Assembly (NCBI GenBank): GCA_938074205.1
Contig: CALJES010000014.1
Coordinates: forward strand, 1-44,667
Direction of reading: 5' to 3'
DNA length: 44,667 nucleotides
Origin: an uncultured bacterium
GTDB taxonomy: Bacteria > Armatimonadota > UBA5829
The notes under the pieces were generated by a model. The model worked only from the letters and a program-made list of their open reading frames with translations, was not told where the DNA came from and did no database searches. Positions 2,071-12,891 of the stretch are shown here, piece by piece (position 1 is the stretch's first letter; each line of letters opens with the position of its first letter). A program made the position numbers and the translations under genes.

Positions 2071-2131
2071 CTTGACCGCTCTATCCTTTCTGCTCGGCCA
2101 CACTATAATAATCTTGCAGGGCACCATTCAC

Positions 2132-3529
2132 ATGTCTGACTGGCAGCTGCAGCTTGGCGAGGACGACGCATACAGATCTCTTCAGGCAGCGTGGGAACGC
2201 GTCATGAAAGCGTTGGAGGAGCGCCTTAACAAGCCGTCCTTCGAAAGCTGGATCCGACCCACGCGCCCACTTGCGCTCGATGGCCCAGTGGTACGCCTGG
2301 GTACTCCAAGTAGGTTCGCAAAGCACTACGTCGAAACCAGATACTTGGACACCATCCGAGAGTTGCTGGAGCTCGAACTCGGCCAGCCTGTTCATGTTCA
2401 ATTCGAACTCGTGGAGGCCAATGAGCCAGTGTTGATGACCGATCGGCTGCCCAGGAAGCCTGTGCAGCGTCCGCCCGAAGACGAGGATGAACCGCTGTCG
2501 CAACCGCTCAACAGCCGATACACTTTCGAAAACTTCGTAGTGGGCGCCAGCAACAGACTCGCACACGCCTGTGCCGTCTCAGTGGCAGAAACGCCTGGCA
2601 AGACTTATAACCCGCTGTTCATCTACGGAGGCTCAGGGCTGGGCAAGACTCACCTAATGCAGGCGATCGGTCATCACATAGGGGACAACGAGCCTCATCT
2701 TCGAGTGTTGTATGTATCAGGGGAAACTTTCACCTACCATTATATAACCGCTCTGCGCGAGCACAAGACATCGCAGTTCCGACGAAAATACCGCGATGTG
2801 GATGTTTGGCTGGTCGACGATATCCACTTTCTAGTTGGCAAAGAGCGCACAGAAGAGGAGTTCTTCCACACCTACAACGCGTTGTACGACACAGGCAAGC
2901 AGATCGTTCTCACCAGCGACCGTGCACCCAAGGAACTAGACCTTGACAATAGACTACTTTCCAGATTCGAGTGCGGCATGATCGCCGACATAAAGCCCCC
3001 AGACTTGGAAACGCGCCTTGCCATTATCCAGAGCAAGGCCGCGAACGAAAACATGACGCTGCCCTACGAGGTTATGCTCTACATAGCCAGCCTCATAACC
3101 ACCAATATCCGCCAGATCGAGGGCGCGCTCATCAAGCTCCACGCCTACGCATCATTAATGCGCACGCAAATCACGGAGTCCTTGGCACAGGAGCTACTTG
3201 GCAACTACTTCACACCGCCATCACAGGCGATAGTGGACGCCCAAAAAGTGCAGCAGCAAGTCGCCCGCCGCTTTAACCTCGACGTTGAAGACCTCAAGGG
3301 TCCCAGTCGGACCAAGGACATCGTAGTAGCCAGGCAAGTAGCCATGTATTTGATGCGCCAGCTCACAGACTGGTCACTGCCCGCTATTGGCCGTGCCTTC
3401 GGAGGACGTGACCACACTACAGTATTGCACGCTTGCAAGTGCATTGCAGCAAAGATCGCGCTCGACAAGGCGTTCTCCAACCTTGTGGAAGATCTAGCCA
3501 AGGAAATCCGCGACGGGAGAAATTGTTGA
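2132..3529 (+). CDS. dnaA: Chromosomal replication initiator protein DnaA
   Basis: DnaA binds DnaA boxes at oriC as ATP-bound filaments, melts the duplex and recruits the helicase. The 465-residue product has the full layout: domain I at 1-85, a charged proline-rich linker at about 100-130, an AAA+ domain at 131-345 with Walker A GGSGLGKTH (166-174) and Walker B VWLVDD (225-230), and domain IV at 360-465 with the DnaA signature GRDHTTVLHACKCI near 425-438. The open frame reaches back to a TTG at 2072, but that adds 20 residues unlike DnaA N-termini. ATG at 2132, giving MSDWQLQ, is the more likely start, although its Shine-Dalgarno match is weak. The gene lies directly upstream of the probable origin. 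dnaN does not follow it. Confidence 0.97.
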   Translation: MSDWQLQLGEDDAYRSLQAAWERVMKALEERLNKPSFESWIRPTRPLALDGPVVRLGTPSRFAKHYVETRYLDTIRELLELELGQPVHVQFELVEANEPVLMTDRLPRKPVQRPPEDEDEPLSQPLNSRYTFENFVVGASNRLAHACAVSVAETPGKTYNPLFIYGGSGLGKTHLMQAIGHHIGDNEPHLRVLYVSGETFTYHYITALREHKTSQFRRKYRDVDVWLVDDIHFLVGKERTEEEFFHTYNALYDTGKQIVLTSDRAPKELDLDNRLLSRFECGMIADIKPPDLETRLAIIQSKAANENMTLPYEVMLYIASLITTNIRQIEGALIKLHAYASLMRTQITESLAQELLGNYFTPPSQAIVDAQKVQQQVARRFNLDVEDLKGPSRTKDIVVARQVAMYLMRQLTDWSLPAIGRAFGGRDHTTVLHACKCIAAKIALDKAFSNLVEDLAKEIRDGRNC

Positions 3530-3647
3530 TCCACTCGGTTATCAATTTGTGGATTCAGCTGTCAATATTAGTGTGCGTAACCAACCGGGTTAACTTACTA
3601 CCGATTTCACACATGTACACCTATCCTTCCACTACAACACTAGTAGC

Positions 3648-3656
3648 TTTTCCACA
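3648..3656 (+). promoter_or_regulatory. DnaA-box-like site
   Basis: TTTTCCACA differs from the consensus TTATCCACA at one position. It points the same way as the tandem pair about 40 bp downstream. Confidence 0.55.
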
Positions 3657-3694
3657 AGCAAGGCAAAACTGCGTACACGCTTCCTTCCATACAC

Positions 3695-3712
3695 TTATCC
3701 ACTCTATCCACA
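3695..3712 (+). promoter_or_regulatory. Tandem abutting DnaA-box-like sites
   Basis: TTATCCACT (3695-3703) is followed without a gap by CTATCCACA (3704-3712). Each matches 8 of 9 consensus bases and both have the same orientation. Directly abutting boxes suit cooperative DnaA binding and may nucleate the initiator filament. Confidence 0.6.
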
Positions 3713-3740
3713 ACATTAGCACCACCACAACCATCCCTCC

Positions 3741-3746
3741 TATAAT
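3741..3746 (+). promoter_or_regulatory. -10 element for a short-leader recF transcript
   Basis: A perfect TATAAT ends nine bases before the recF ATG at 3756. A weak -35, TTAGCA, lies at 3716-3721 with a 19-bp spacer. Transcription from here would start within a few bases of the ATG, giving a leaderless or nearly leaderless mRNA. This fits the absence of a Shine-Dalgarno sequence before recF. Confidence 0.45.
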
Positions 3747-3755
3747 TACCTAGTC

Positions 3756-4871
3756 ATGCAAGTAGACCATATCTGCCTGATTCATTTTCGAAACTATGAT
3801 AAGCTTGACTTCATTCCGCACCAACGAGCAAACGTAATCGTAGGCCGAAACGCTCAAGGAAAGAGTGCACTTCTCGAAGCCTTATACTTCCTTTCGACAA
3901 GCAAATCGCATAGAACTAATCGAGACTCTGAACTGATTCAGTTGGGGTCGGAATACGCTAGAGCCAGCGCAAATGTTAGGCGAGAGACCCGTCCGGACAT
4001 TACCATCGAAATAGCTCTGAGTAGAGTTCAAGGGAAGTCGTGTCTGATAGACAATAAGAAGAAGAACAGGTTACCAGATTTTGTAGGGCAGCTGAACGTG
4101 GTCATATTCAGCAGTTTCGACGTTGAAATGGTTCGAGGTGAACCAGCTCTCAGGCGTAGGTTTCTTGACCTTGAGCTTTCCCAGATTAGTGCCCACTATC
4201 TGTATGCCCTCTCCCGTTATAGGCGGACACTGGAGCAAAGAAACCGAGCGCTGAAGCTGGTGAACATTGGCCAGGCCCACTTGAAAACGCTGGAGCCTCT
4301 AGACCAACTACTGGCTACATATGGGGCCTCGGTGATGGTGAAGCGGGGTGAGTTTCTAGCCAAGTTAAACATAACCGCACAAGAAGCGTATAGAGGATTG
4401 GCGGCGGGTAATGAAATGCTAGAGGTGAATTATAAACCATGTGTGCCGATGGCAGGTGGTGGCCCCGAAGAGGTGATGCGTAGCCTGCTGAATGGACTTG
4501 CTGAAAAGAGGGACGTGGACATAGTTCGAGGAAGTACAAGTATTGGTCCGCACAGGGACGACGTGGAGATGAGGATAAATGGGGTGGGTGTTCGAGACTA
4601 CGCCTCTCAGGGCCAGCAAAGATCCACAGCGCTGGCGCTCAAACTTGCAGAGGCTATGATAGTTCGAGAGAGTGTTGGCGAGAGTCCGGTTCTCCTTTTG
4701 GACGATGTTTGCGCAGAGCTGGACATGCAGAGAAGGTCTGGAGCGTTAGCTTTTGCTGCGAGAGGATTTCAGTCGTTTGTTACTACAACCAGTTTGGAAG
4801 AATTGCCTGTTGGGGTGCTCGGTGAGGTGGGGGTTTTCGAGGTTAGTGCAGGAGCAGTGACGCAGCTATGA
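3756..4871 (+). CDS. recF: DNA replication and repair protein RecF
   Basis: RecF is an SMC-like ATPase that works with RecO and RecR to load RecA at single-strand gaps and stalled forks. The 371-residue product has Walker A GRNAQGKSA (30-38), the ABC signature SQGQQRS (284-290) and Walker B VLLLDD (312-317) followed by CAELD, which is the complete ATPase head of a normal-length RecF. ATG at 3756 starts MQVDHICLIHFRNY, a typical RecF N-terminus. The gene begins at the right edge of the probable origin and its stop overlaps the next start by 4 bp (ATGA), implying translational coupling with the DUF721 gene. The usual upstream partner dnaN is missing. Confidence 0.95.
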   Translation: MQVDHICLIHFRNYDKLDFIPHQRANVIVGRNAQGKSALLEALYFLSTSKSHRTNRDSELIQLGSEYARASANVRRETRPDITIEIALSRVQGKSCLIDNKKKNRLPDFVGQLNVVIFSSFDVEMVRGEPALRRRFLDLELSQISAHYLYALSRYRRTLEQRNRALKLVNIGQAHLKTLEPLDQLLATYGASVMVKRGEFLAKLNITAQEAYRGLAAGNEMLEVNYKPCVPMAGGGPEEVMRSLLNGLAEKRDVDIVRGSTSIGPHRDDVEMRINGVGVRDYASQGQQRSTALALKLAEAMIVRESVGESPVLLLDDVCAELDMQRRSGALAFAARGFQSFVTTTSLEELPVGVLGEVGVFEVSAGAVTQL

Positions 4872-5401
4872 CTGAGCCTGGGTTTCGGAAAGGCAAGCTG
4901 TCACCGGCCGGAAAAGTGTTGGGTGAAGTCCTATCCAGGCTGGGACTGGAGCGACGCTGGAAGGAGCACAACTTGCTGAGCAAGTGGGCTTCGGTAGTTG
5001 GAACACAAGTAGCAGCGGCGACCCGTATAGAGGGGATACGCGACGGCGTGCTCACTGTGTTGTGCAGAAGCAGTGCTTGGGCAAACGAGCTGTCCCTTTA
5101 CAAGGACCAAATTGTGGGGCGCCTTAACGAAATTGCCGGTGAAGAAATAGTGCGAGACATACGTTTCTCGACTAGGGGCTATCGCTCAGCGGCGAATGGC
5201 GCAGAAGCAAGGGGGAGCCAGGAGGTGCCAGCGGAGGCTCCTCTCAATAAGGAGGATGTGGAGTGCGCCCGAAGGATAGCGTCGGCCTGCAAAGACCCGG
5301 AGCTTGGTAAAGTAGTGGAGCGGGCTATTTTGACAGCGAAGAGATACCGCAAGCGAGGCCCGGAGTTGGAGTGCGAGAAGGAGGTGGAAAAGAATGGCTG
5401 A
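4868..5401 (+). CDS. dciA: DUF721 protein, DciA-like helicase loader
   Basis: A 177-residue DUF721 protein. Members called DciA are the widespread ancestral loaders of the replicative helicase DnaB, where DnaC or DnaI is absent. The N-terminal part, about residues 10-105, has the family pattern: a basic start, helices around WKEHNLLSKWASVVGTQVA, then GVLTVLCRSSAWANELSLYK, the typical central strand and helix. The rest is a charged, probably disordered tail rich in Glu, Lys and Arg. It overlaps recF by 4 bp and rtcB by 8 bp, so the three are very likely co-expressed. Position beside dnaA and recF matches the actinobacterial-style order recF-DUF721. The family call is firm; the loader role is taken from the family. 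Confidence 0.85.
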   Translation: MTEPGFRKGKLSPAGKVLGEVLSRLGLERRWKEHNLLSKWASVVGTQVAAATRIEGIRDGVLTVLCRSSAWANELSLYKDQIVGRLNEIAGEEIVRDIRFSTRGYRSAANGAEARGSQEVPAEAPLNKEDVECARRIASACKDPELGKVVERAILTAKRYRKRGPELECEKEVEKNG

Positions 5402-6851
5402 GTGGACCGGACCTGTTCAGAAGATAGACGACTATAGGTGGAGAATTCCGAAGTCGTACAAGCCCGGCATGCGTACCGACGGAGTAGTTTATGCGACGGA
5501 GAAAATGCTCCAGCAGATAAGAAAGGACGAGTCGCTGGAGCAGGTGGCTAACGTGGCTTTCCTGCCAGGTATTGTCGGTCCGTCAATGGCGATGCCGGAT
5601 ATCCACTGGGGTTATGGCTTTCCGATAGGAGGAGTTGCGGCCACTCGCGTTAGCGACGGGGTAGTCTCCCCAGGAGGCGTGGGATTTGATATAAACTGCG
5701 GGGTCAGACTTCTTCGGTCGGATCTCACGGAGACAGATATAAGCGGTCGAATAACTGAGCTGATAGACGAGCTGTATGTAAATATTCCGGCAGGTGTCGG
5801 TGGTGAAGGTAAGATCCGTGTGGACGAGGCCGATCTCAAGAAAGTGATGCTGAAGGGCGCAAAGTGGATGGTAGAACACGGCCTAGGCTGGCCTGAGGAC
5901 CTGGAGGTGTCGGAAGAGAATGGCGCTATGGAGGGCGCTGATCCCGATGCTGTGAGTAAGGAGGCGATTAAGCGCGGCCGACCGCAGCTGGGAACGTTGG
6001 GCTCGGGCAACCATTTCTTGGAGATTCAGGTAGTTGAGGAGATCTACGATGAGGGCATAGCCCAGGTATTCGGCATTGCGGAGAAGGGCCAAGTTACGGT
6101 GATGATTCATAGTGGGAGCAGGGGCTTTGGCCACCAGGTCTGTCAGGACAACCTGAACGTAATGCAACGGGCAATACAGAAGTACGGAATATCGCTGCCG
6201 GACCGCCAGCTGGCGTGTGCGCCAGTGACGTCGCCAGAAGGCCAGGCGTATTTGGCCGGAATGGCGTGCGCTGCCAACTTTGCGTGGGCAAACCGACAGG
6301 CGATAGTGCACTGGGTTAGAGAAACCTTTGAAAAGGTCCTTGGCAAGGGCGCGCACAGCCTGGGACTGCGGCAGGTCTATGACGTGGCGCACAACATTGC
6401 CAAGCTGGAGGAACACCCTGTAGATGGCAAGTCGGAGAAGCTTTGCGTTCACCGCAAGGGCGCGACACGGGCATTTGGTCCTGGTCATCCCCTGGTGCCC
6501 GCCCAGTATAGAGCCGTTGGGCAACCTGTGATTGTCCCTGGCGATATGGGTCGGTACTCATACCTGCTTGTGGGTACTGAGACCGCGATGCGAGAGACCT
6601 GGGGATCGACCTGCCACGGCGCAGGACGTGTGATGAGCCGTAATGAGGCAATCAAACATATGCACGGTTCGCAGGTGCAAAGCGAATTGGCAGGACGGGG
6701 AATATTCGTAAAAGCAAAAGGTAGAGAGACCCTATCGGAAGAAGCTTCGTATGCGTATAAGGACGTGCGTGAGGTAGTAGAAGCTTGCCATGGAGCAGGA
6801 ATTTCGCGGCTGGTAGCAAAAATGCGCCCACTAGGGGTTGTAAAAGGCTAG
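5394..6851 (+). CDS. rtcB: RNA-splicing ligase RtcB
   Basis: RtcB is a GTP- and Mn-dependent ligase that joins 2',3'-cyclic phosphate or 3'-phosphate RNA ends to 5'-OH ends, used in RNA repair and, in archaea and animals, tRNA splicing. The 485-residue product is full length and keeps the metal and guanylylation residues: Cys102 in FDINCGVRLL, Asn206-His207 in GSGNHFLEI, His239 in IHSGSRG, His333 in DVAHN and His408 in CHGAGR, the GMP-accepting histidine. A strong AAGGAGG inside the end of the DUF721 gene supports ATG at 5394. No RtcA cyclase or archease gene is next to it. Location in an operon with recF and the helicase-loader gene is unusual. Confidence 0.96.
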   Translation: MAEWTGPVQKIDDYRWRIPKSYKPGMRTDGVVYATEKMLQQIRKDESLEQVANVAFLPGIVGPSMAMPDIHWGYGFPIGGVAATRVSDGVVSPGGVGFDINCGVRLLRSDLTETDISGRITELIDELYVNIPAGVGGEGKIRVDEADLKKVMLKGAKWMVEHGLGWPEDLEVSEENGAMEGADPDAVSKEAIKRGRPQLGTLGSGNHFLEIQVVEEIYDEGIAQVFGIAEKGQVTVMIHSGSRGFGHQVCQDNLNVMQRAIQKYGISLPDRQLACAPVTSPEGQAYLAGMACAANFAWANRQAIVHWVRETFEKVLGKGAHSLGLRQVYDVAHNIAKLEEHPVDGKSEKLCVHRKGATRAFGPGHPLVPAQYRAVGQPVIVPGDMGRYSYLLVGTETAMRETWGSTCHGAGRVMSRNEAIKHMHGSQVQSELAGRGIFVKAKGRETLSEEASYAYKDVREVVEACHGAGISRLVAKMRPLGVVKG

Positions 6852-8050: not shown

Positions 8051-9802
8051 TTGAGACTCTTGCTTGCGACGAGCACACAGCTAAGGCAGTTCCTGCGCGA
8101 GTATAGGCTGCTGTTGATTTTGGGCTGTTCCGCTTTGCTGGCTGAGCTAGCCTACGCAATATTGAATCTGTCCGCGATGCCCATGTATCTGAAGTTTTCT
8201 TTGCATCAGGAAGCAGCATTGGGCCTGATAATCAGCACCTTCCTACTGACAGAGGCTCTTTCTAGGCCAGCGTTTGGAGCGTTGGGGGACCGGATAGGTA
8301 GAAAGCCTCTTTTAGTGGCTGGACCCGCGGTAACGGCAGTGACGTCGTACATTACGGTGAAGCTCCAAGGGCCTTTCGCGGTGCCGGGACTAGTCCTGTT
8401 AAGAGCAATTGACGGTTTGGGCAGCGGCGCTCTTTGGCCCACCGCGTTTGCGACGATAGGTGACGTGGTTAATGAGAGACACCGCGGCGCTGCGTTGAGC
8501 GTTCTGAACGTGACGTACATGGGTGGGCTAGCGTTGGGCTTCTTGCTCGGCGGCGCAGCTAACGAAATCCAGGGCACGCTGACGGCATCCTTCTATCTGG
8601 TTTCGATCTTGCTTGGCACGGCAGTTGTAGTTTTGCTGCTGTTCTTCCAGGTGCCTAAGAGCGCGCCATCTCGTCCACTGCCGGAAACAGTTGGCGTGAC
8701 GCCTGAGCTGGAGGCGTTTCAGCATCCCGAAAGATTTCGTCTAGGCACGCTGTTCAGAAGCTTTGGGGAGGCGCCGGAGATGATCGTGTTGGCCTGTGTA
8801 ACGTCCCTTGGCGTGGGAATGCTGACACCCATTGTTAAGCTATACGGCGTCGAGCACCTGGGATTGTCGGAAACGGGGATCGGTCTTCTAGTTGCTCCGA
8901 TCGCGGCCTCGATGGGCGTTGCTGCTGTGCCGCTAGGCCATTTCGGGGACAGATACGGCAAGTGCCTCGCGCTGTGCTGGGGGCTGTTCGGCTGCGCCTG
9001 CGGCATGTGGGCAGTGGCTCTCTTTCGAAGCGTCGCAGTAGCCGTTGTCGCCGGGATTGTGATAGGGTTGGGATTTACGGTGGCCTTCCCTGCGTGGAAT
9101 TCGGTGGTGATCTCGGCTACCTCGCCGGACAGGCGTGGGGAAGTGCTCGGTGCAGTGGGGATGGCCCAGGGGTTGTCTGCTATAGTAGGAGCAAGCGCGG
9201 GGGCTTTCATATATGCGAGTGAATCCCTGAGCTTTCCTAGGCTTGGCTTGGTCAACTACAACGTGCCCTTCTGGCTAGCCGCAATTCTGCTGACGTGCTC
9301 GGCCGTCATTGCATTCACCTGGGTTCGTAACAAGCACGGCTTTAGGGATCCCGCGCCCGGAGTAACACCGGGGCAACAAAGAGCGGCGCTCGTCGCGTGC
9401 GCAGCTGCTCTGGTAAGCGTCGGTGTGTGGGTAGCGACGTGTTACACAAGGCCAATAGCGCCTGACAGGGTGACCTGGTGCTGGATTCAGCAATTGGTCA
9501 GGGGACGACCAGATAGAGCTATGCGGTTTGTAATTGCTAACTCAGGCGGTGGCTGGGACGGTGTTGCTGAAAGCCGGCTCCTGGCTCGGACATTTCGGGA
9601 ATGGGCGCGGAAACGTGAAGCCCGGTACACAGTATACAAGGCGAGGTTGTTTGACCACCATCGCGCTCAGGTTAAAGTGGTGTTTTTCTTGTCAGGGAAG
9701 CAGAGAAAGCATTTCGAAGTAGTGTTGCGTCGGTTGGAATCGCGCGAGTGGAAGATTGTTCGCGTGAGCGCAAAACCGAATTCACAAGCTTATTCTCGTT
9801 GA
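8051..9802 (+). CDS. MFS transporter with extra C-terminal membrane-anchored domain
   Basis: A 583-residue major facilitator protein. Residues 1-425 show about 12 hydrophobic segments and the loop 2-3 signature GALGDRIGRKPLL, with its echo GHFGDRYGK in the second half, indicating a drug or metabolite exporter-type MFS. After segment 12 an extra hydrophobic helix (about 445-465) leads into a soluble domain of roughly 115 residues that mixes helices and strands and looks like a small NTF2/DUF4878-like fold; that fold guess is tentative. MFS proteins normally stop after segment 12, so this is a fusion or lineage-specific extension. The start is uncertain: the frame opens at TTG 8051 with GGAG very close upstream, and no ATG precedes the first helix. 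Its stop codon overlaps the next gene's -35 box. Confidence 0.85.
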   Translation: MRLLLATSTQLRQFLREYRLLLILGCSALLAELAYAILNLSAMPMYLKFSLHQEAALGLIISTFLLTEALSRPAFGALGDRIGRKPLLVAGPAVTAVTSYITVKLQGPFAVPGLVLLRAIDGLGSGALWPTAFATIGDVVNERHRGAALSVLNVTYMGGLALGFLLGGAANEIQGTLTASFYLVSILLGTAVVVLLLFFQVPKSAPSRPLPETVGVTPELEAFQHPERFRLGTLFRSFGEAPEMIVLACVTSLGVGMLTPIVKLYGVEHLGLSETGIGLLVAPIAASMGVAAVPLGHFGDRYGKCLALCWGLFGCACGMWAVALFRSVAVAVVAGIVIGLGFTVAFPAWNSVVISATSPDRRGEVLGAVGMAQGLSAIVGASAGAFIYASESLSFPRLGLVNYNVPFWLAAILLTCSAVIAFTWVRNKHGFRDPAPGVTPGQQRAALVACAAALVSVGVWVATCYTRPIAPDRVTWCWIQQLVRGRPDRAMRFVIANSGGGWDGVAESRLLARTFREWARKREARYTVYKARLFDHHRAQVKVVFFLSGKQRKHFEVVLRRLESREWKIVRVSAKPNSQAYSR

Positions 9803-9827
9803 CAGCTCAGCTGGACGCTTCTATAAT
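9799..9827 (+). promoter_or_regulatory. Perfect sigma70-type consensus promoter
   Basis: TTGACA at 9799-9804 and TATAAT at 9822-9827 are separated by exactly 17 bp, the full consensus. The -35 hexamer overlaps the MFS stop codon. The predicted start of transcription, near 9834, lies only about ten bases before the ATG of the next gene, which has no Shine-Dalgarno sequence. Confidence 0.8.
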
Positions 9828-9843
9828 CGTGACACCCAAAGCC

Positions 9844-12171
9844 ATGTCGTCCTTAGCGTCCCCGATCGTCTCGCTTACTGAGGCAAACAGGCGTCCCGGA
9901 TGTGGAAATAAGGCAGCAGTCCTTGCCCGACTCATCTCAGCTGGCTTCGACGTTCCACCAGGGTTTGTTGTAACGTCCGATGTGTTTCTGTGGCACTTAA
10001 GATTGGCTGGGCTTGAGAAAATTGACCTCAGAACAGCAGACCGTGTTGAGAGAGGGGAGGCCCATACCGCTATTCTGAACACCGAAATAGCCCCTGAGAT
10101 ATGGGAGCTTATCGTTGATGCCTACGAAGAATTGGTTTATACAAGCAGTATTGGAGAACCTCGACTTGTCGTTAGACCGTCGGCTAATCCGCACCTGATC
10201 GGAGCGTATGAGAGTTTTACCAGCATAAACAGCCCTGAACAACTGCAGAAAGCAATCAGGCGCATATGGGCATCAGCTTGGACTGAACACGCTGACTGCC
10301 TACTCCGTCGAGACGTTCCGACGGGCCAAATAGAGCTCGGTGTGCTAGTGCAGATTATGGTCGACAGTGAAATCCACGGGCTTACCGTTACGGCTAATCC
10401 TCTGACAGGCAATCCTCATCAGATTTTGACCTGCACAGACGGCGCCTGCGGGAGTAAGGCGGTAGTATTTGACTTATGCTCATTAAATGTTGAAGGCAAC
10501 TTCGCTGGTGACAGCCCATTCGAAGCACTTATTTCGGCAGAAAAAGCTATTCTTGCGGAGCAAGTGGTAGGGCGACCGGCGGAGATCGAGTGGGCCTACG
10601 ACGGCAGTAGACTCTGGATCCTCCAGGCACAACGCTCAGAGGGTATCCCTGCATACTTTCCAATAACCGTGGCACCCGATGCGCGGGAGTTTGCTAGGGT
10701 GACGCGCAGTCCCGTTTCGGTCCTAGTGCGCAGCGTGCTGTGGCCGAGAGAGTCCGCTCGTGCCATCAAACTTCCGCTTCGTGCAGCCCGCGAGGAACAG
10801 AGTCTTATCAACGGTTTTGTCTATCGCTGCAGCTCGTCCGTGCTGCGAGATGCCTGCGTTATGAAAGATCCGCGCATCCAGGACGGTGAGATTGTTAGAG
10901 CTCAACGAGAACTGAATAGGATAACCGTTGAACTTCCAAGTCTCTCGGCAAATCTATCAGCACTGCTCCGCGAGGATCTAAACCGGATGCCTATGCGCGA
11001 GCTCATAAGAGTCTTCCACGAAGCTGCGCGCCTTTACAGGCGCAGTGTTGAACTGCTGGATTACTGTAGATATCCCAGCCAGCGGTTCCCGAAGCTTCTA
11101 AGGGAGTTCCTGGGAAGCGGAAGCGACGCCGAAAGCACATACCAACAGTTGATGGCGGGAGCTGCCTTGCCTTTTATAGCGAGGGATACAACTCTTCAGG
11201 ATCTAGGAGATCGCCTCGCTGCTGCGAGATCCACCGGCAAAATTGAGGATGACCAGTGGCGAAAGCAATTCAGGCAAGAGGTTGAGAACTTCGCGCGTGA
11301 ATATTGCTACGCCTTTCAGCATCACGGCGAACCATATGACGTGGCTTCATGGAAAAGTTGGATTGAGGATTCGGATATCCTATTTCGAATCATCGGTGCA
11401 CTCGCGCGGCGAGGGAAACGAGCGTCACTGCCGAGTCTCTGGGAAGTGAGGAAAAGAGCCGTTCCGCAGGTGAAACGCGACATTTTAGCGGCGTATAGCG
11501 GCCGAGCGCGCGAGCATCTCTCGAAGTTGATCGTTCAATCCCTGGGATGGGTTGAAGCAAGAAGCGCTGCGTATTGCGTGTGCGCTCGGGCAGGAACAGC
11601 CCTGCGACTGGCAATGTTGGAACTGGGCAGTAGGCTGCAAGGCTTCAGAGCGCTAGTGCGGCCGGAGGATATCTTCCATTTCGAGCTGGATGAGTGCGAC
11701 GAGCTAGCGTGTCGTGGGATGAGCATGAAAACAGGGGAAATAGTTCGTTTGCTTGCTGATAGGAAGCACCGTATCTGGCTGCAAGAGCGCCTGCAAGCGC
11801 CTGAAAAGCTGCCGATAGAAAGCGAAGCGGAGCCCAAACACGCTTCCCAGGATCAGATAAGAGGTCAGCCTTGCAGTCCTGGAGTTGCTCAAGGTCGAGT
11901 CCTGATCGCCGACAATATTTCGGACGCGTGTTCAGCAGAACCTGGGCATATAATTGTTTCCCGTGAGCTTACGTCAGCCTGGACGCCGCTTCTAGGTGTT
12001 GCTTGCGGCTTTGTGTCGGAGAATCCTGGCGAAACGGTAATTGCTTCAATGGCGGCTTTACATGGCAGCCCGATTGTTTCAGATTGTGTGGGCGCTACCG
12101 AGGTCTTTTCCACTGGCGAGTTGGTCGCACTCGACGGTCTCACTGGAAGAATTGAGCGAATACTAGGCTAA
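9844..12171 (+). CDS. PEP synthase/rifampicin phosphotransferase-like protein lacking the phosphohistidine
   Basis: A 775-residue protein with the domain order of PEP synthase-type dikinases and rifampicin phosphotransferase. The N-terminal ATP-grasp domain (about 10-265) has GNKAAVLARL, VPPGFVVTSD, RPSANPH, GLTVTANPLTGN and PAEIEWAYDGSRLWILQAQ. A helical middle region (about 280-670) is unlike PEP synthase, and a C-terminal swivelling domain (683-775) begins SPGVAQGRVLI. The swivelling domain normally carries the catalytic His in a TSHAAIVAR-type motif. Here the aligned stretch reads ETVIASMAALHGSPIV, with Val732 at the His position, so phosphotransfer by the usual route seems impossible. 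The LQSRP motif is also altered to LQAQR. ATG 9844 is the first start fitting the family; the frame opens further upstream without homology. Known relatives phosphorylate pyruvate or rifampicin; this one may bind ligand without transferring phosphate. Confidence 0.8.
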   Translation: MSSLASPIVSLTEANRRPGCGNKAAVLARLISAGFDVPPGFVVTSDVFLWHLRLAGLEKIDLRTADRVERGEAHTAILNTEIAPEIWELIVDAYEELVYTSSIGEPRLVVRPSANPHLIGAYESFTSINSPEQLQKAIRRIWASAWTEHADCLLRRDVPTGQIELGVLVQIMVDSEIHGLTVTANPLTGNPHQILTCTDGACGSKAVVFDLCSLNVEGNFAGDSPFEALISAEKAILAEQVVGRPAEIEWAYDGSRLWILQAQRSEGIPAYFPITVAPDAREFARVTRSPVSVLVRSVLWPRESARAIKLPLRAAREEQSLINGFVYRCSSSVLRDACVMKDPRIQDGEIVRAQRELNRITVELPSLSANLSALLREDLNRMPMRELIRVFHEAARLYRRSVELLDYCRYPSQRFPKLLREFLGSGSDAESTYQQLMAGAALPFIARDTTLQDLGDRLAAARSTGKIEDDQWRKQFRQEVENFAREYCYAFQHHGEPYDVASWKSWIEDSDILFRIIGALARRGKRASLPSLWEVRKRAVPQVKRDILAAYSGRAREHLSKLIVQSLGWVEARSAAYCVCARAGTALRLAMLELGSRLQGFRALVRPEDIFHFELDECDELACRGMSMKTGEIVRLLADRKHRIWLQERLQAPEKLPIESEAEPKHASQDQIRGQPCSPGVAQGRVLIADNISDACSAEPGHIIVSRELTSAWTPLLGVACGFVSENPGETVIASMAALHGSPIVSDCVGATEVFSTGELVALDGLTGRIERILG

Positions 12172-12241: not shown

Positions 12242-12270
12242 TTGACTGATTGCGCGCACGGTGTTATCCT
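12242..12270 (+). promoter_or_regulatory. Promoter for the anti-sigma-type kinase gene
   Basis: TTGACT (12242-12247) and TATCCT (12265-12270) are spaced by 17 bp. The predicted transcript starts near 12277 and has a leader of about 70 nt. Confidence 0.6.
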
Positions 12271-12345: not shown

Positions 12346-12891
12346 ATGAACCAAACCACAGATTTAAGCCGCCCGGCTGTGTGTACTCTAGACGATGTAA
12401 GGCAGGACCCTCTTGGTGACCGTGAAAGACTTGAACAGCTCCGCAGAGTTGAGCGCGAGTTCGGACTGCTGGAAGGAGAGGTAGCTTCTGAACCGTGGTT
12501 AATGGATTACTTCACTTTTCCAGCCACGACGAAGTACTGCAGAGAGGCGCGAACGCGCATAGAGAGACTGGTTTGTTCAGCGGGCGTTAGCGAACAGGTA
12601 AGGTACGACATCGCGTTGGCAGTTGGGGAAGCTGTAGCGAATGCCGTGGAACACGGCAATGGAAACAACCCGGACGGATCATTTACTGTGCGGTGTGTCG
12701 CAACGCCTAAAAGGATATTTGTCTCTGTGAGCGACCAGGGTCCCGGTTTTGATCCTGAGGAGCTACCTAGCCTAAGCGAAGCGCTGCTGCGAGATCGGGG
12801 CAGGGGAATACACTGTATCCTTGCAGTAATGGACGAAGTTGGCTTCGATTTCGCCTCAGGCACTACTGTGCGAATGGTAAAGTTCTGCTGA
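12346..12891 (+). CDS. RsbW/SpoIIAB-type ATP-binding regulatory protein
   Basis: A 181-residue protein with a GHKL-type HATPase_c_2 domain, as in the anti-sigma factors and serine kinases RsbW and SpoIIAB. The N-box is EAVANAVEHGNG (about residues 101-112), the G1 box is DQGPGFDPEEL and the G2 box is DRGRGIHCI. The fold therefore looks able to bind ATP. The first 55 residues are an extension before the kinase core. No anti-anti-sigma (STAS) partner, PP2C phosphatase or sigma factor gene is adjacent, so this is an orphan whose target is unknown. ATG at 12346 is the first Met, but the nearest purine-rich AGGAGA (12323-12328) is 17 nt away, so the true start could differ slightly. Confidence 0.85.
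   Translation: MNQTTDLSRPAVCTLDDVRQDPLGDRERLEQLRRVEREFGLLEGEVASEPWLMDYFTFPATTKYCREARTRIERLVCSAGVSEQVRYDIALAVGEAVANAVEHGNGNNPDGSFTVRCVATPKRIFVSVSDQGPGFDPEELPSLSEALLRDRGRGIHCILAVMDEVGFDFASGTTVRMVKFC

Follow-up and report, generated by a model that had tools for sequence, protein, structure and literature searches.

A probably phosphotransfer-dead dikinase family with rifampicin phosphotransferase architecture in one order of Armatimonadota, frequently encoded beside an RsbW-like kinase

Results

The locus and its gene content

The window analyzed here is the whole 44,667-nucleotide stretch of a genome from an order of Armatimonadota, and the named records among its relatives include UBA5829 and A05DMB-I-24. 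Genes for DnaA (2072–3529), a RecF/SMC-like ATPase (3756–4871), and DciA (4868–5401) cluster at positions 2072–5401, with rtcB next (5394–6851); since the first three lie together, the window probably holds the replication-origin region. An MFS transporter gene was found at 8051–9802, and its product has an extra C-terminal part (residues ~409–583) without a match to any Pfam family. The gene under study, designated here the pseudo-dikinase gene, is preceded by a sigma-70 promoter and followed by a gene for an RsbW-like switch kinase (Table 1).

Table 1. Features of the pseudo-dikinase locus (window positions, unless residues are given).
Feature	Position	Strand	Basis
Sigma-70 promoter, perfect TTGACA-N17-TATAAT	9799..9827	+	Pattern search; kept in 10 of 11 f1 genomes
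Pseudo-dikinase gene, 775 aa	9844..12171	+	Open reading frame, Pfam, AlphaFold model, fold matches
Pseudo-dikinase domains	Residues ~1-270 (ATP-grasp), ~290-650 (helical middle), ~669-775 (swivel)		
Lys23, equivalent of RPH-Lm Lys22; invariant	9910..9912	+	Alignment, PMC4844700
Arg111, equivalent of RPH-Lm Arg117; invariant	10174..10176	+	phmmer and family alignment
Ser124, aligned with RPH-Lm Thr136; always Ser or Thr in the family	10213..10215	+	Alignment
Glu249, aligned with RPH-Lm Glu297 (an Mg ligand); an acidic residue in f1 but His or Gln in f2	10588..10590	+	Alignment
Swivel (PEP-utilizers) domain, fold kept	11848..12168	+	2e28 match, Pfam
Val732 codon, at the catalytic phosphohistidine position	12037..12039	+	Alignments with relatives
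Promoter-like TTGACT-N17-TATCCT before the RsbW-like gene, also in G002	12242..12270	+	Sequence comparison
RsbW-like switch kinase gene (HATPase_c_2, 181 aa), next gene downstream	12346..12891	+	Pfam

Domain architecture

The pseudo-dikinase is a member of the PPDK_N/PEP-utilizers superfamily, as both Pfam matches exceeded their gathering thresholds (PF01326, 90.2 bits vs. 27, E 2e-25; PF00391, 35.6 bits vs. 23.1, E 7e-9). The AlphaFold model, built from 20 sequences with a mean pLDDT of 86.5, comprised three domains: ATP-grasp, a long helical middle domain, and a swivel at the C terminus. Over the full length, the fold was matched best by the structures of rifampicin phosphotransferase (RPH) 5hv1 and 5fbs–5fbu (Foldseek E 7e-32). 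Single domains matched PEP synthase, PPDK, HpeI, and the swivels of pyruvate kinase and enzyme I, and a match to D-Ala-D-Ala ligases was also found. Swivel residues 668–774 aligned with PDB 2e28, a Bacillus homologue of PykA, with a Z score of 17.1 and an rmsd of 2.3 over 107 residues. A viral fold search gave partial matches only. PADLOC returned no match, and membership in a defence system was therefore rejected.

Loss of the catalytic histidine

Residues 729–745 of the pseudo-dikinase read GETVIASMAALHGSPIV. In alignments with His-bearing relatives, Val732 falls at or next to the His column (canonical SHAAIVAREYGIP vs. TVIASMAALHGSP), and a gap-free count back from the conserved Gly-x-Pro leads exactly to Val732. 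The catalytic His of a swivel domain normally caps the helix at this place, and the swivel helix of the AlphaFold model begins at residue 731. The alignments revealed no His at or near the site in the swivel loop. His was absent in all 12 family members with a readable swivel loop, all from one order of Armatimonadota; the loop of canonical relatives in these alignments is SHAAIVARE or THGSVVARE. The residues in the His column are varied, differing somewhat by alignment, and a partial member (L024) reads SSQPGIESI at the loop. No replacement nucleophile is conserved at the site in the family alignments. His740, for which the original prediction had suggested a new catalytic role, occurs in the source genome only; Tyr stands there in the other 10 aligned members, so His740 was rejected as a substitute nucleophile. 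Most His-bearing relatives shown in the alignment also have Tyr at this position. The prediction of an intact gene without its catalytic His held: the reading frame is open, the site is fixed as His-less across orthologues, and neither a conserved His in the loop nor an orthologue carrying it appeared on alignment.

His mutants of related enzymes are inactive, as reported for HpeH H581Q and Bacillus cereus RPH H827A (PMC12167813). Judged from its residues, the family is very probably phosphotransfer-dead, and the case for this dead-enzyme part of our reading is strong. It is very improbable that a separate protein gives the phosphohistidine in trans, in the manner of the HpeH/HpeI pair distributed over two polypeptides. 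Two-component dikinases do exist (PMC12167813), but the pseudo-dikinase has retained a dead swivel domain of its own, and apart from it a PEP-utilizers domain was found in the genome only inside a full-length PPDK-like protein. A free swivel domain as the donor was rejected, none being found in the genome. The source genome also encodes a separate protein of PPDK length in which the His is present.

ATP-grasp and substrate-phosphate sites

Arg117, Thr136, and Glu297 of RPH-Lm were mapped by phmmer alignment with the RPH-Lm chain, and Lys22 was placed by motif (Table 1). In RPH-Lm, Lys22 (contacting the alpha and beta phosphates), Arg117, and Thr136 touch the nucleotide phosphates, and resistance depends on each of them (PMC4844700). 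The original statement that the ATP-grasp domain keeps its major motifs proved only partly right. Lys23, Arg111, and Ser124 are kept, but the GLGExxVSG (GLGE/VSG) segment is absent from the aligned family ATP-grasp domains. Two further positions are unconserved: Glu, Thr, Ser, or Val occurs at the first acidic metal position, and the distal Arg position holds Arg, Gln, Asp, Asn, Lys, or Met. Members of f2 are additionally without Glu249 and Gln261. Glu667 and Lys670 of RPH, which hold the product phosphate beside the His, have no equivalents in the family alignment, and the equivalent of RPH Arg666, a position extrapolated from the phmmer alignment, is Arg in some members only. This pattern of residues agrees with possible binding of a phosphorylated ligand but no phosphotransfer; as residues alone, the retained Lys, Arg, and Ser are no proof of nucleotide binding.

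The pseudo-dikinase might still be an enzyme that performs an ATP-grasp reaction for which the swivel His is dispensable; ATP hydrolysis, acyl-phosphate ligation, and AMP/PPi chemistry are examples. We consider this unlikely. The three kept phosphate-site residues (Ser or Thr at 124) would allow it, as would the fold match to D-Ala-D-Ala ligases and the dispensability of Glu297 in RPH-Lm, the Glu297Ala variant of which stays active (PMC4844700). It is opposed by the missing GLGE/VSG segment, by the variable first acid and distal Arg, and by the further loss of the second acid and Gln in f2, since variable metal and phosphate ligands are unexpected in a conserved enzyme.

Family, orthologues, and selection

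Full-length relatives from the same order aligned end to end at 26–60% identity, and the family formed one clade with an SH-aLRT of 99 in a quick tree. No orthologue was detected outside the order among 291 genomes of the phylum; the genomes of the relatives are mostly draft assemblies. A search of genome contigs with the single protein returned no match, and an alignment query returned named Armatimonadota records. By architecture and loop residues, the pseudo-dikinase belongs to a lineage-specific family of predicted phosphotransfer-dead proteins with the RPH layout.

Against the nearest sister species (60% identity, dS saturated), dN/dS was ~0.13 in each of the three domains. On these comparisons, the gene is under purifying selection and is not decaying, as had been predicted. 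A decaying pseudogene or a sequencing error, which could account for a missing catalytic residue, has a negligible probability and was ruled out by intact orthologues in >10 species at ~30% identity, purifying selection, and the conserved promoter.

The only full-length His-bearing relative of the RPH kind in the order is a distant paralogue in G008 (G008:C4, L129), which formed the long, nearest branch to the family in the quick tree. Elsewhere in Armatimonadota, the RPH-like proteins L027 (G042:C167) and L020 (G052:C27) have LLSQAG and PLSQAV, respectively, at the place expected to hold SH. These two His-to-Gln losses are apparently independent, and the close relatives L028 and L018 keep the His. 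In G008, the one genome with two RPH-layout paralogues, and in other Armatimonadota lineages, such proteins can be told apart only by inspecting the His.

Promoter

The promoter was correctly predicted to be a perfect consensus. Its chance expectation in the window is 0.01, and the 3.02-Mb genome contains 25 TTGACA-N17-TATAAT sites vs. one for the reversed control pattern; none of the other 24 has an ATG of a frame of at least 80 codons within 20 nt. In 10 of 11 f1 genomes, a perfect (12/12) TTGACA-N17/18-TATAAT precedes the ATG by 12–16 nt; G013 is the exception, and the G001 promoter was judged by eye on the printed sequence. In f2, G015 has a perfect copy 94 nt upstream; the G017 contig ends too early for the promoter to be judged. 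Only 16 nt separate the TATAAT of the pseudo-dikinase promoter from the ATG, and a nearly leaderless transcript is therefore expected: a transcription start at the usual 6–8 nt after TATAAT would leave a leader of ~4–10 nt, too short for a normal Shine-Dalgarno sequence. The promoter and the short leader suggest a strongly expressed, near-leaderless message.

RsbW-like neighbour and genomic context

Orthologues of the RsbW-like gene were found at the same place and strand in G002, G003, G005, G009, and G011. The last four are longer, with an N-terminal STAS part (detected by Pfam scan in G003 and G005 and by similarity in G009 and G011), and represent a fused RsbV-RsbW; the proteins of the source genome and its sister species are without this part, which is fused N-terminally in other genera. 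In six genomes (g1, g2, g4, and G011), the next gene downstream, on the same strand, encodes a STAS-HATPase or HATPase protein. Most genomes outside the genus of the window have the RsbVW gene in convergent orientation to a DXS/IDI-2 gene pair; no DXS/IDI-2 genes were seen near the pseudo-dikinase in the genus of the window (g1), yet the dikinase-RsbW pair is still together there. The dikinase gene lies elsewhere, with RsbW not adjacent, in G004, G008, and G013, and RsbW is likewise not adjacent in f2. A SpoIIE/PP2C phosphatase gene adjoins the dikinase in G004, G008, and G014. This adjacency carries little weight because RsbW and SpoIIE paralogues are numerous (~3–17 per carrier genome), and it is probably a single event. 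The parts of a partner-switching system seen were an adjacent kinase and STAS domain in several genomes and a phosphatase in others; no sigma factor was seen at the locus.

Within the order, an RsbW orthologue (at least 100 bits) was present in 11 of 13 carriers of the dikinase vs. none of six non-carriers (Fisher p 0.001, a figure uncorrected for phylogeny and inflated by shared ancestry). One of the two carriers without it is a 67%-complete genome.

Upstream of the RsbW or RsbVW gene, several genera share a block resembling TTGAC(T/G) ... GGTGGTA, possibly a second conserved promoter or operator. The promoter-like sequence of the RsbW gene itself weakens the case for a strict operon and was counted against a regulatory reading. 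The G008 paralogue (L129/L151, 6175–8664) keeps its His in WLCHETNLCRE and adjoins 2-oxoacid dehydrogenase E2 and aconitase genes, and therefore gives no support to an RsbW link. No signalling genes were present among the scanned neighbours of the His-less RPH-like proteins in G042 and G052, so such a link is not general to His-less members.

A phosphotransfer-dead protein could also have a function unrelated to RsbW, as a small-molecule or nucleotide binder or a metabolic scaffold, with the adjacency being inherited synteny of no functional meaning. We regard this as a real possibility, although a rather doubtful one. All the evidence for the loss of phosphotransfer holds without any inference from the neighbourhood, and the RsbW gene is elsewhere in several genomes; however, the pair is kept in six genomes while the other flanks change, and the presence or absence of the dikinase tracks that of the RsbW orthologue.

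Discussion

Proposed function

The whole lineage keeps the dead form, usually beside a signalling-kinase gene, and the protein is therefore probably a sensor or regulator. The family likely works as a ligand-responsive regulator, so far as residues and neighbours can indicate. The original prediction had offered a binding protein, a regulator, or a new use of His740; the neighbouring genes favour a role in binding or regulation, and only the His740 option falls away. Our favoured, if tentative, reading, to which we give slightly less than even confidence, is that the pseudo-dikinase is a nucleotide- or metabolite-responsive regulator of an RsbV/RsbW partner-switching pathway, the RsbW link being inferred.

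Proteins of the RPH/PEP-synthase fold undergo a large swivel movement driven by ligand. In the proposed mechanism, the ATP-grasp cleft would bind a nucleotide or another phosphorylated ligand, and the middle domain would perhaps bind a small molecule. The swivel domain, no longer carrying phosphate, would move as an arm and dock according to the ligand. This ligand-dependent state would be read by the RsbW-type kinase or by its STAS/PP2C partners, which would make the pseudo-dikinase a metabolite-responsive, probably stoichiometric, input to the pathway. It is possible, though we hold it with some reserve, that an RPH-like enzyme was converted once, within this order, to a non-catalytic ligand sensor feeding the RsbV/RsbW switch. 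If true, the family would be a natural experiment in the change from dikinase to sensor, with the machinery kept and the chemistry dropped, and a new kind of metabolite input for partner-switching pathways. Neither a description of the family nor a ligand-sensor dikinase as a partner-switch input was found in the open-access full-text literature searched.

Comparison with known systems

The pseudo-dikinase shares with RPH-Lm the order of ATP-grasp, helical middle (substrate), and C-terminal swivel domains, as well as the equivalents of Lys22, Arg117, and Thr136. In contrast to RPH-Lm, the catalytic His825, Glu667, and Lys670 are not kept, the middle domain is shorter and divergent, and the GLGE/VSG segment is absent. 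It scored 82.7 bits vs. a cut-off of 999 for the curated RPH model NF041857, and the phosphohistidine required of an RPH was found in no member with a readable loop. Phosphorylation of rifampicin by the pseudo-dikinase is expected to be negative.

The ATP-grasp and swivel domains are homologous to those of PEP synthase and PPDK (2ols, Z 27.4 over 259 residues), but the swivel of the pseudo-dikinase is C-terminal, Pfam detected no PEP/pyruvate barrel domain, and the His is missing; the PEP synthase model TIGR01418 gave 98.7 vs. 739.75 bits. Annotation of such genes as PEP synthase or rifamycin resistance should be avoided. The phenol kinases HpeHI, CreHI, and PpsAB have the same three domains, and HpeI matches residues 4–270 (Z 22.4). 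However, HpeH needs its His (H581Q is inactive; PMC12167813), whereas the pseudo-dikinase has fused domains and has lost the His.

The resemblance to RsbU/RsbV/RsbW partner switching lies in the neighbouring genes, which encode STAS, HATPase_c_2, and SpoIIE-type proteins; a PEP-synthase-like protein did not appear in the partner-switching papers that the open-access full-text search returned. A regulatory precedent for the swivel domain exists in Bacillus subtilis, where the PEPut domain of pyruvate kinase modulates activity and replication (PMC9009071). As in the proposed role of the pseudo-dikinase, the swivel of PykA is a regulatory element and not a phosphate carrier (PMC9009071), and the folds match at Z 17.1; the PykA domain differs in keeping its TSH motif and in being attached to an active enzyme.
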